DNA of 49,212 bases from Prevotella sp. GTDB taxonomy: Bacteria; Bacteroidota; Bacteroidia; Bacteroidales; Bacteroidaceae. Positions 23,789-27,409 of the stretch are shown here, one piece after another (positions within the stretch are counted from its first letter, which is position 1; each line of letters begins with the position of its first letter). The stretch is from the NCBI GenBank assembly GCA_017619445.1, contig JAFZSI010000066.1:1-49212 (forward strand). Reading direction: 5' to 3'. The position numbers and the translations under genes were made by a program. The notes under the pieces are model-generated. The model was not told the DNA's origin. It did not search any database and worked only from the letters and a program-made list of their open reading frames with translations.

Positions 23789-23934
23789 CATAAACCTATG
23801 CTTTATGAAAGCAACATGCGACTTTACGAAAAAATTCTCTAGAAAAATCAATCATATCTCCCGACGTTGATTTTTTGGTACCACGAGTTATGAAAACAAC
23901 ATGCTGCTTTACGAATGAATTCTTTAGAAAATTT
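23789..23934. repeat. 21-bp units with two TCTAGA/TTTAGA cores (arrays C1 and C2)
   Basis: Two 21-bp units (23789-23809, 23810-23830) abut the core AAATTCTCTAGAAAAATC (23832-23849). A second set has a 21-bp unit at 23895-23915 preceded by a diverged one, then the core GAATTCTTTAGAAAATTT (23917-23934). The units share the CTTTACGAA/CTTTATGAA half with arrays A and B. Between the sets, AAAATCAA and TTGATTTT could form a small hairpin. Most of the 360-bp gap before the next gene is this repeat; the second core ends 11 bp before a promoter. Confidence 0.75.
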
Positions 23935-24028: not shown

Positions 24029-27000
24029 ATGCGTTCAGAGAAACAGATGGCAACTGCTGCTGCCGAATTTGCCGAGCGATGGAAAGGCAGAGGCTATGAG
24101 CGGGGCGAGTCGCAGCCCTTCTGGATAGACCTGCTGACGAACGTCTTTGGCATAGAGACACCTTCAGACGGATTCATTTCGTTTGAGGACCATCGCATGG
24201 TGGATGCCTCCAACTTCATTGACGGGCGCATCCCCTCTACGCGCGTGCTTATCGAGCAAAAGTCGCTGGGCAAGGATTTGCGCAAGGGCATTCTTCAGAG
24301 CGACGGCTCACTGCTCAATCCTTTTCAGCAGGCACGCCGCTACGTGGTCAGCCTGCCTGTGTCTGAGCATCCCCGCTGGATAGTCACCTGCAACTTCTCC
24401 GAGTTCCTGGTCTATGACATGGAGCAGCCCAACGGCGAGCCTGAGCAGATAATGCTGGAGAACTTAGGCAAGGAATACTATCGGCTGCAGTTTCTTGTCG
24501 ATGCCAAGAGCGAGCACCTGAGCAAGGAGATGCAGGTGTCGATGCAGGCCGGTGAGATTGTCGGAAAGATATACGACGCGCTGCTAAGACAATACGACGA
24601 CAACAGCCCCGAGGCACTGCGTTGGCTCAATATCCTTTGTGTGCGCATTGTGTTCTGTCTGTATGCTGAGGATGCAGGAGTGTTCACTCACGACCAGTTC
24701 CACGACTTCCTCGTAACCTACGAGGCAAAGGACCTGCGCCGGGCATTGCGCGATTTGTTTGAAGTGCTGAACACGCCTTTGGACAAGCGCAGCAAGTATT
24801 TGCAGGACGACCTGAAGGCGTTCCCCTACACCAACGGCGGATTGTTTGATGAGGAAATAGAAATTCCGCAGTTCACCGATGAGCTTAGGACCGCACTGCT
24901 ACAGAATGCCAGCCTTGACTTTGACTGGAGCGAGATTTCGCCCACCATTTTCGGAGCCGTATTTGAAAGCACACTTAATCCCGAGACGCGCCGCTCGGGC
25001 GGCATGCACTACACCTCGATTGAGAACATTCACAAGGTAATCGACCCGCTGTTCCTTAATGACCTGCGGCGAGAACTGAACGGCATTCTGGAAGAAAAGA
25101 TTGAGAAACAACGACAGAAGAAACTCGATGCCTACCAAGACCGCCTTGCCTCGCTCACTTTCCTTGACCCAGCCTGCGGCTCTGGCAACTTCCTCACAGA
25201 GACCTACCTTTCTTTACGACGCTTGGAGAACGAGGTCATCCGCGAACGCCATCACGGACAGTCGTTCATAGGTTTTGAGGAGGTGAATCCCATCAAGGTG
25301 AGCATACAGCAGTTCTACGGCATAGAAATCAACGACTTTGCCGTCACCGTGGCCACCACCGCCCTGTGGATTTCCGAGGCGCAGATGCTGGCAGAGACCG
25401 AGAAGATTATACGCCGAGATATCGACTTCCTGCCGCTGAAAAGCTATACCAACATCCGTGAGGGCAATGCGCTGAGAATGGATTGGAATTTCATCCCATA
25501 CAAAGACGATCTGCCATCACCGTTGCCAGTAAACTGTTTGCCATCAAGCAGAACCGTCCCCGGCTATATACCCGTAGAAGTCGGAAGAAAAGAAATACGC
25601 CCCAATGTGTATGAAATCCTCTACGAAGAAAAGCCAAAGGAAAAGGGGCTCACCATATTCTATAATTATATCATGGGCAATCCGCCATTCGTGGGAGCAC
25701 GGCAGATGAACAGCGAACAGAAAGCAGATGTCATCAGTATATTTGGCGAGAAGTGGAAGAATGTCGGCAATCTTGACTATGTGTGCTGCTGGTATATGAA
25801 AGCCTTTCAGTCAACACGAATAGGGCATCCTCAAATTGCTTTTGTATCCACCAACAGCATTTGTCAGGGAGAACAAGTAGCAAACCTGTGGCAGCCTCTC
25901 ATGGAAAATGGGCTTCGCATCAACTTTGCCCACCGCACCTTCCGATGGGATAGCGAGGCCAGCATGAAAGCCCACGTACATTGCGTGATAGTAGGTTTCT
26001 CCGCAACCACTCCAAAAGCAGAACATACTTACTCCCCCTCTAAGATTAGAGGGGGTCAGGGGGCGTTGACAGAAACAGAGCATGTGATGAACACTGAAGA
26101 CATGAAATCCCTGCGACGCATGCTCCGTAAAAACGGCACACCTGCCGAGGGTGGACTTTGGAACATTCTCAAAGGGAAGAAGGTTGGCGGCTTACAGTTC
26201 CGGCGTCAGTTCTCCATTGGTCCCCATATTGTCGATTTCTATTGTCCTGCACTAAAGCTTGCTGTCGAGCTTGACGGAGACTACCACTATTATGGCTCTA
26301 TGCCTGAACACGACCAAGCACGTGACGATGAGCTGCTTCATAAATACGGAATCCGTACTTTGCGCTTTGAGAACAAAATGGTGTTCCAACAACCGGAAGC
26401 AATCGTGAACAGCATTCTGCAAATGAAAGAAGAGGTCAACGCCCCCCACCCCCCTCTAATCTTAGAGGGGGAGTTGAATAGTTCTGCTTCTCCCGTAATC
26501 TATGATGGAGAACGTATTATCCCTGCCAGCCACATTAATGCCTATCTGATGGATGCGCCCGATGTGTTTATAAGTAGCCGGCCTTCGCCCATTTGTGATG
26601 TACCTTGGATTGGAATAGGTAATAAGCCCATTGACGGCGGAAATTATCTCTTTACAAAGGAGCAGATGGAAGATTTTATAAAATTGGAACCACTCTCAGC
26701 ACAATACTTTAAACCTTGGTATGGATCCGAGGAATTCATACATCAGAGGCCGCGTTATTGCTTGTGGTTAGGCGATTGCTCACCTGCGGAATTACGCAAA
26801 ATGCCTCATTGCTTGAAACGGATAGAGGCAGTAAGAGAAATACGTTTGGCAAGTACCAGTGCTGGAACTCGCAAACTTGCAGACCGTCCGACACGATTCC
26901 ATGTTGAGAACATGCCGGATACGAACTACATCATCGTGCCCTCAGTTTCTTCTGAAAAGCGCCGTTATGTTCCTATGGGTTTTATGTATCCCGATGTGTT

Positions 27001-27409
27001 GGCCAGTAACCTAGTTTTTCTCATCCCCAATGCCACGCTCTTCCATTTCGGCATACTCGAGAGCAACGTACACATGGCTTGGATGAGGGCTGTCTGCGGA
27101 AGACTGGAAATGCGTTATCGCTATAGCAAAGACGTGGTTTACAACAACTTCCCCTGGCCCAATCCTACTGATGTACAGAAGGCGAAGATTGAACAGACGG
27201 CGCAGGCAATCCTTGATGCCCGTGCCCTTTACCCCGACTCATCGTTGGCCGACCTGTACGACGAGCTGACCATGCCTGTTGAACTGCGCAAGGCTCATCA
27301 GGACAACGACCGCGCCGTGATGCAGGCCTATGGCTTCAACGTGAAGAGCATGACTGAAAGCCAGTGCGTGGCGGCGTTGTTCGAATTGTATAATACTTAT
27401 ACCCGATAG
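24029..27409 (+). CDS. MmeI-like type IIG/IIL restriction-modification protein carrying an in-frame DUF559 insertion
   Basis: 1126 residues from ATG 24029 (MRSEKQMATAAAEFAERWKG); earlier in-frame ATGs lie before or on the promoter. N-terminal nuclease signature: D65 in NFIDG and E76-Q77-K78 in VLIEQKSLG. A helical spacer is followed by the methyltransferase, with DPACGSGNF at 380-388 and NPPF at 551-554 (adenine methylation). The target-recognition part begins around INAYLMDAPDVFI. Such proteins cut and methylate with one chain and one recognition domain. Bases 26016-26489 are an inserted 158-codon DUF559 element between HVHCVIVGFSATTP and PVIYDGERI; without it the protein would be 968 residues with an uninterrupted frame. 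Whether the enzyme still works is unknown. Flanking genes are unrelated housekeeping genes. Confidence 0.82.
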   Translation: MRSEKQMATAAAEFAERWKGRGYERGESQPFWIDLLTNVFGIETPSDGFISFEDHRMVDASNFIDGRIPSTRVLIEQKSLGKDLRKGILQSDGSLLNPFQQARRYVVSLPVSEHPRWIVTCNFSEFLVYDMEQPNGEPEQIMLENLGKEYYRLQFLVDAKSEHLSKEMQVSMQAGEIVGKIYDALLRQYDDNSPEALRWLNILCVRIVFCLYAEDAGVFTHDQFHDFLVTYEAKDLRRALRDLFEVLNTPLDKRSKYLQDDLKAFPYTNGGLFDEEIEIPQFTDELRTALLQNASLDFDWSEISPTIFGAVFESTLNPETRRSGGMHYTSIENIHKVIDPLFLNDLRRELNGILEEKIEKQRQKKLDAYQDRLASLTFLDPACGSGNFLTETYLSLRRLENEVIRERHHGQSFIGFEEVNPIKVSIQQFYGIEINDFAVTVATTALWISEAQMLAETEKIIRRDIDFLPLKSYTNIREGNALRMDWNFIPYKDDLPSPLPVNCLPSSRTVPGYIPVEVGRKEIRPNVYEILYEEKPKEKGLTIFYNYIMGNPPFVGARQMNSEQKADVISIFGEKWKNVGNLDYVCCWYMKAFQSTRIGHPQIAFVSTNSICQGEQVANLWQPLMENGLRINFAHRTFRWDSEASMKAHVHCVIVGFSATTPKAEHTYSPSKIRGGQGALTETEHVMNTEDMKSLRRMLRKNGTPAEGGLWNILKGKKVGGLQFRRQFSIGPHIVDFYCPALKLAVELDGDYHYYGSMPEHDQARDDELLHKYGIRTLRFENKMVFQQPEAIVNSILQMKEEVNAPHPPLILEGELNSSASPVIYDGERIIPASHINAYLMDAPDVFISSRPSPICDVPWIGIGNKPIDGGNYLFTKEQMEDFIKLEPLSAQYFKPWYGSEEFIHQRPRYCLWLGDCSPAELRKMPHCLKRIEAVREIRLASTSAGTRKLADRPTRFHVENMPDTNYIIVPSVSSEKRRYVPMGFMYPDVLASNLVFLIPNATLFHFGILESNVHMAWMRAVCGRLEMRYRYSKDVVYNNFPWPNPTDVQKAKIEQTAQAILDARALYPDSSLADLYDELTMPVELRKAHQDNDRAVMQAYGFNVKSMTESQCVAALFELYNTYTR
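26031..26070 (+). repeat. Left inverted repeat of the DUF559 element
   Basis: 40 bp starting ACTCCCCC and ending GCGTTGAC. It holds a perfect palindrome (26033-26054): CCCCCTCTAA and TTAGAGGGGG around 2 nt. In the host frame it encodes SPSKIRGGQGALT. Confidence 0.9.
26435..26474 (-). repeat. Right inverted repeat of the DUF559 element
   Basis: Inverted copy of the left end, identical at 37 of 40 positions; the three differences are adjacent, between the palindrome and the G-run. It contains the same 22-bp palindrome and encodes NAPHPPLILEGEL in the host frame. Confidence 0.9.

Follow-up and report, generated by a model that had tools for sequence, protein, structure and literature searches.

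A DUF559 nuclease bracketed by inverted palindromes within an MmeI-type restriction-modification gene of Prevotella

The closest described counterparts of the locus reported here are the REPtron/RAYT systems and their REPINs (GTAG REPs; PMC3733652, PMC3116915). They share with it a nuclease gene between inverted REPs, many short dimers and a palindrome specific to the gene. The locus lies in a stretch of 49,212 nucleotides, hereafter the window, from Prevotella sp. (contig JAFZSI010000066.1, assembly GCA_017619445.1). In contrast to REPtrons, its enzyme is a DUF559 protein and not an HUH tyrosine transposase, and copies of the element lie in frame inside genes. Pfam assigns DUF559 alone to the insert, with no HUH tyrosine transposase (Y1), and by eye the GTAG tag is absent from both arms of the window element on both strands.

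A further group of REPs carries a CGTC tag. It includes some Rickettsia RPEs and Neisseria dRS3, and Di Nocera and colleagues report no dedicated transposase for it (PMC3733652). CGTC REPs resemble the window element in being palindromic, often dimeric and sometimes in frame in proteins; the tag itself was not seen in the window arms. Rickettsia palindromic elements share the in-frame palindrome, whereas the window insert is 474 bp long and includes a nuclease domain. To our knowledge, the Rickettsia RPEs are short and have no nuclease gene of their own.

Inteins and homing endonucleases (EDxHD/Vsr-type) also place a nuclease in frame within a host gene. However, the hosts and sites of DUF559 are numerous, and no intein splicing (Hint) domain matched the window host protein in Pfam at E 0.01, so the insert is expected to remain in the mature protein. 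The domain belongs to the YcjD/VsrA family (DUF559, PRK09767), which has stand-alone members in E. coli (YcjD) and Caulobacter (VsrA). Literature on DUF559, ycjD and COG2852 was covered through titles, the starts of abstracts and some passages, which hold no link to repeats. We think it probable that the insert is a nuclease-carrying member of a REP-like palindromic family, driven by DUF559 and able to survive in frame in host proteins.

An in-frame insert in an MmeI-type gene

The host gene encodes an MmeI-type (type IIG) restriction-modification enzyme of 1126 residues, insert included (24029..27409, plus strand; PADLOC REase_MTase_IIG). A second in-frame ATG is possible upstream at 23915. 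Pfam domains follow in the order MmeI_N, MmeI_hel, MmeI_Mtase (ending at residue 665), DUF559, MmeI_TRD (from residue 842) and MmeI_C. Approximately 158 codons between the methyltransferase and target-recognition domains can be assigned to neither, and the target-recognition domain restarts 3' of the insert (residues 842-1045; 26552..27163, plus strand). The initial annotation had proposed an in-frame insertion in an MmeI-like gene, 474 bp long, a multiple of three and free of stop codons. This is borne out by a single open frame that runs from 24029 to 27409, remains intact through the insert and has MmeI domains on both sides of DUF559.

We place the insert at 26016..26489 on the plus strand from its inverted arms and from the linkers of homologues, with each end accurate to several bases. 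The arms are 55 nt each, 84% complementary and separated by 364 nt, in agreement with the inverted-repeat bounds first proposed. Inverted-repeat comparison puts the left arm at 26016..26070 (plus strand), where it consists of the end of a spacer, a palindrome and a tail, and the right arm at 26435..26489 (minus strand). A palindrome scan found the same 22-bp palindrome, CCCCCTCTAANNTTAGAGGGGG, in both arms (26034..26055 and 26450..26471). At up to 3 mismatches it has 2 sites in the window and none in 100 window shuffles. The left tail, GGGGGCGTTGAC, points toward the nuclease (26059..26070, plus strand) and recurs in short copies; the right tail lies on the minus strand (26435..26446) and reads GTCAACGCCCCC on the plus strand. 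The arms end in GTTGAC and GTCAAC.

The tails of the window element thus point inward, and by eye most relatives differ. Tail direction was judged by eye only; a mechanical count (42 outside, 3 inside and 5 undecided of 50) was rejected because its calls were wrong for the window and, on inspection by eye, for L001 and L066. A candidate 4-nt CTCC duplication, seen by eye at 26010-26013 and 26490-26493, is too short to count. We saw no target duplication, empty site at strain level or movement of the element. We also discarded the idea that stop-free arms reflect special design. Arms are free of stops in 4.58 of 6 frames, against 4.60 in shuffles of the same letters, which points to composition; pieces drawn at random from these loci give 3.99.

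The DUF559 domain (PF04480) occupies residues 692-799 (26102..26425, plus strand), with a Pfam E-value of 2.5e-24 and a score of 85.7 bits against a curated cut-off of 20.6. It also matches the solved 3hrl "Endonuclease-Like Protein" in sequence (E 2.5e-13). The DUF559/Vsr-like assignment and residues D736, E747 and D749 were correct as first annotated, and the conserved set further comprises E707 and H753 (residue numbers assigned by hand on P0001). The insert had been described as encoding this domain, which is present but covers just 324 of the 474 bp. A YcjD profile detects Vsr, and YcjD is grouped with Vsr among the PD-(D/E)XK nucleases (PMC1189080).

We then compared host homologues. Of 151 family genomes, 25, including that of the window, have a match to the host protein with an E-value no higher than 1e-50. 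The matches listed contain 29 loci besides the window's, representing 26 distinct homologues, one of them (L049) a second copy within one genome; the insert is absent from all 26. Named homologues, the best 80 of 581 relatives, include 79 that are readable at the linker (L107 starts there), and DUF559 lies at the linker in none of the 79. The prospect that most homologues would carry the same DUF559 segment is therefore contradicted by both sets.

Linker length was measured in 68 homologues, all from other species, the linker motif having missed 12 of the 80. It is 18-45 residues overall and 19-21 in 60 of the 68, compared to 176 in the window, which gives an insert of approximately 155-158 codons. 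Excision of exactly 26016-26489 had been predicted. An insert is present at this linker, but linker length varies too much among homologues to fix the junction or the exact ends. In the homologue L096 the very same linker contains a degenerate version of the window palindrome (score 15), and scores in the remaining 78 of 79 do not exceed 8. This solo palindrome may be what is left of a former insert, or it may have inserted alone and independently.

Matched palindromes at DUF559 genes

DUF559 was detected at E 0.001 in 49 of the 151 family genomes, with a strong match in 40. Of the 107 places listed, 89 were analysed, 18 weak or short ones being left out, and two more were lost at the end of a locus, leaving 87. 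Inverted flanking arms with a score of at least 18 within 400 nt were present at 50 of these 87 loci and fell below threshold at 37. A Vsr control, drawn from the 30 best Vsr loci minus 10 at a contig end, did not reach even a score of 14 in the same 400-nt flanks (0 of 20 genes). With 250-nt flanks, 18 of 29 DUF559 loci scored at least 18, compared to 1 of 308 random ORFs.

The two arms of one element resemble each other more than they resemble those of other elements. Across the 50 loci, which were selected for arm agreement, median agreement per base was 0.78 within an element and 0.25 between elements, and only 8 of 1225 between-element pairs reached the within-element median. Arms also occur beyond the family. 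We read 22 of the 39 records with DUF559 in a plasmid collection. The first 18, from cyanobacteria, Deinococcus and alphaproteobacteria, had arms in 11 and none in 7, and the next four had arms in 0 of 4. In four of the 11 (L277, L289, L291, L292) the arm contains two palindromes. Among the 30 best Bacteroidota DUF559 loci, 8 had arms and 22 did not, and among long frames the count was 1 of 11, indicating that arms are a weaker sign of DUF559 loci beyond the family and where frames are long.

The window palindrome has 18 copies in its own genome at up to 3 mismatches. Twelve of these form six pairs, 69-146 bp apart, in the order tail, palindrome, spacer, palindrome, tail; none of the six lies inside an open frame extending at least 50 codons past both sides. 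Nuclease-free short palindromes were seen within long open frames at L018, L220, L237, L242 and L249 of the source genome, and non-coding copies may thus also be tolerated in proteins. On contig C8 (24563-32601; L020 2564-10602), approximately 8 kb lie between two window-palindrome copies whose tails point inward as in the window. By eye, this segment holds two DNA methyltransferase-like genes, a phospholipase-D-like gene and an ImmA/IrrE-like protein; it is possibly a larger cargo.

The source genome has two DUF559 genes, the window's and one on contig C70. The latter is flanked by another palindrome, which together with its tail has 88 copies at up to 3 mismatches. The repeat of 40 bp first reported belongs to one among many palindrome families. 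At up to 1 mismatch, the window palindrome occurs among the 151 genomes only in its own (18 copies) and in G030 (2 copies), where no DUF559 was found. The exact palindrome of another element, L190, is present in 5 of the 151 genomes, and DUF559 is present in all five.

We also counted a generic palindrome (CCCTCCC-N2-7-GGGAGGG) across the 151 genomes. Where DUF559 matched strongly, 21 of 40 genomes had at least 5 copies, compared to 10 of the 111 others (Fisher p 5e-8, a value that overstates independence because the genomes are related). The other 19 of the 40 carry fewer than 5, and G017 has 141 copies with no DUF559 found.

These data bear on the possibility that the palindromes are passive REP units moved by another enzyme, such as a RAYT, with DUF559 as cargo or a sheltering gene. 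REPs elsewhere are linked to RAYTs (PMC3733652), and some palindrome-rich genomes have no strong DUF559 match, as this explanation would allow. However, palindrome number tracks the presence of DUF559 (the gene surveyed), the palindrome is common to both ends of an element and differs between elements, and all 20 loci of the control Vsr family were without such arms. We therefore consider passive palindromes unlikely and favor DUF559 as the partner of its own palindrome.

Nested nuclease domains in other host proteins

In-frame copies of DUF559 occupy approximately 18 host genes or sites besides the window's. At seven of the 87 family loci the open frame continues for at least 90 residues beyond each end of the domain. 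Their hosts are the window protein, MiaB, an AAA_30/UvrD_C_2 helicase, SpoIID (with one site common to two genera), a DegT-type aminotransferase and an Epimerase/Polysacc_synt_C protein, which we take to be CapF-like. In the same family set, DUF559 is joined ahead of another frame at 10 loci and behind one at 6. Partners include gmk, leuB, ispF, ispG, phosphoglycerate mutase and a GNAT-like protein (some names by eye), and no partner was recognised at L201 and L206. The N-terminal fusions possibly use an internal start codon. L218 and L219 appear to have a different, helicase-linked architecture.

Hosts in Bacteroidota include LeuRS (sites A and B), MetH, RecG, HsdR (two sites), HsdM and a UvrD helicase, as well as type ISP and related methyltransferase proteins; the set of 20 regions picked for long frames gives no prevalence figure. 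The assignments at L324, L326, L330, L338 and L339 were made by eye. Restriction-modification proteins are common among the hosts in this set, which was picked for high scores and long frames. On a cyanobacterial plasmid, DUF559 lies within an Eco57I/MmeI-type protein annotated as a single gene of 1621 residues. The initial annotation had pointed to a nuclease nested inside another DNA-cutting enzyme; this describes the window, but hosts are not restriction enzymes alone.

Alignments of hosts to solved structures show where the proteins are interrupted. The match of the MiaB host to 7mjv breaks at residue 221 and picks up at 227, that of RecG to 1gm5 breaks at 515 and picks up at 519, and that of LeuRS to 1h3n breaks at 473 and picks up at 493. 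In the genus of the MiaB host, 25 loci from 26 genomes include DUF559 in 1 (the query) and lack it in 23, with 1 missed by the motif. An inverted repeat of a non-DUF559 type lies in the same MiaB loop at L256, and this loop seems to accept insertions readily. By eye, L163 (Gmk) and L205 (aminotransferase) have a second short, palindrome-like, in-frame stretch besides DUF559; the match of L163 to Gmk 2an9 covers 196 residues against 175.

We surveyed conserved residues in 144 distinct domains, with L218 and L219 excluded and fragments shorter than 86 residues dropped. The presumed catalytic set (E, D, E, D, H) is intact in all 31 nested domains, the window's counted, and likewise in all 10 N-terminal and all 6 C-terminal fusions. 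Of the 97 stand-alone proteins, 2 have Asp changed to Glu at one conserved position. In all 12 nested pairs that share host and site, pN (0.08-0.36) was lower than pS (0.59-0.95, often saturated), although members recur between pairs and the pair L323/L326 is only weakly constrained (0.36 versus 0.59). Together with the kept residues, these data suggest that most nested nucleases are not drifting. We infer that a need for folding by itself would not preserve the catalytic residues. On a tree of these 144 domains the nested label requires 14 changes, 4 of them forced by well-supported branches; the tree is built on few columns and many of its forks are unresolved. Nested copies at L332, L333, L336 and L337 have no recognisable ends, indicating that the nuclease there is kept for a purpose other than moving with those ends.

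Another explanation is that the restriction enzyme acquired DUF559 because an added nuclease or mismatch-repair domain was of use to it, the palindromes being incidental. The low pN relative to pS in nested domains agrees with this, as do the many nested hosts that are restriction-modification proteins (HsdR, HsdM, type ISP, MmeI-type). In Caulobacter, cells without the methylase ScmA depend on the DUF559 protein VsrA for their response to DNA damage (PMC12907096), which means that at least one DUF559 member acts on DNA in cells. However, the same kind of insert is present in MiaB, RecG, LeuRS, MetH, SpoIID and sugar enzymes, for which a common benefit is not evident. The window-protein and MiaB homologues that we read are without the insert, the query itself excepted, and arms resemble each other within an element. 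Domain accretion is thus, in our view, rather unlikely as compared to a mobile element that DUF559 drives.

Homing without REP mobility would have DUF559 cut uninserted alleles and gene conversion copy the insert, with the palindromes as by-products. EDxHD is named as a homing endonuclease family (PMC6083498), members of different genera carry copies at the same site (LeuRS sites A and B, RecG, MetH), and the nuclease persists in some nested copies whose ends are lost. Occupation of the other host genes or sites argues against homing, as do the numerous gene-free short copies of the same palindrome, and we judge it improbable. Many of the genomes analysed are drafts. An assembly chimera at the repeated palindrome is conceivable in a draft genome of 81 contigs with 18 palindrome copies, but is very improbable given that the reading frame is unbroken over both junctions and that nested copies also occur in single-contig genomes (G203, G217, G277, G280, G286, G306).

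A probable REP-like element built around DUF559

The window insert is best read as a REPtron-like selfish element in which a probable PD-(D/E)XK nuclease replaces the HUH transposase and which stays unspliced in its host. The suggestion that it belongs to a distinct class of mobile element gains from the matched inverted palindromes at many DUF559 genes and from the other in-frame hosts and sites. A palindrome and its G/C-rich tail form the REP unit, and two inverted units flank the DUF559 gene, with shorter gene-free pairs (REPIN-like dimers) scattered over the same genome. In the mechanism that we propose, the DUF559 protein, probably of PD-(D/E)XK/Vsr type, would recognise its own palindrome, possibly as a single-stranded DNA hairpin. 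Its cutting would lead to the bracketed unit being copied, moved or excised, as is thought for RAYT and REPINs. Landings that are in frame and stop-free at tolerant linkers would persist as an extra protein domain, and the nested nuclease would stay selected while the palindromic ends may decay. We infer the role of DUF559 as driver of movement, the hairpin substrate and the continued activity of the host enzyme.

A broader proposal, to which we give even chances, is that a large class of REPs, present across phyla, owes its so far missing enzymes to DUF559. These would be autonomous, palindrome-bounded nuclease elements that spread through genomes and become permanent, unspliced, in-frame domains of essential proteins. 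If true, the elements would stand as a mobile class apart, with a distinct cutting chemistry, and would act as a repeated source of domain insertions in proteins. This would supply a candidate enzyme for the REP families reported without a transposase (PMC3733652), and would explain a widespread domain of unknown function. It would also mean that a mobile gene has entered LeuRS, RecG, MetH and MiaB, unspliced and retained.

The ycjD gene should put part of this idea within reach of tests in E. coli K-12. There, ycjD (DUF559) lies between sapF and fabI (L369, L375), and palindromes are present on one side only. A strain-level empty site was rejected as a candidate. Two strains without ycjD have efflux genes at this place, eefRABCD (PMC12817139), and no clean junction was seen. 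Of 5426 genomes, 5100 match the palindrome-bearing stretch of 246 bp that follows ycjD, with a median of 4 matching places in each.
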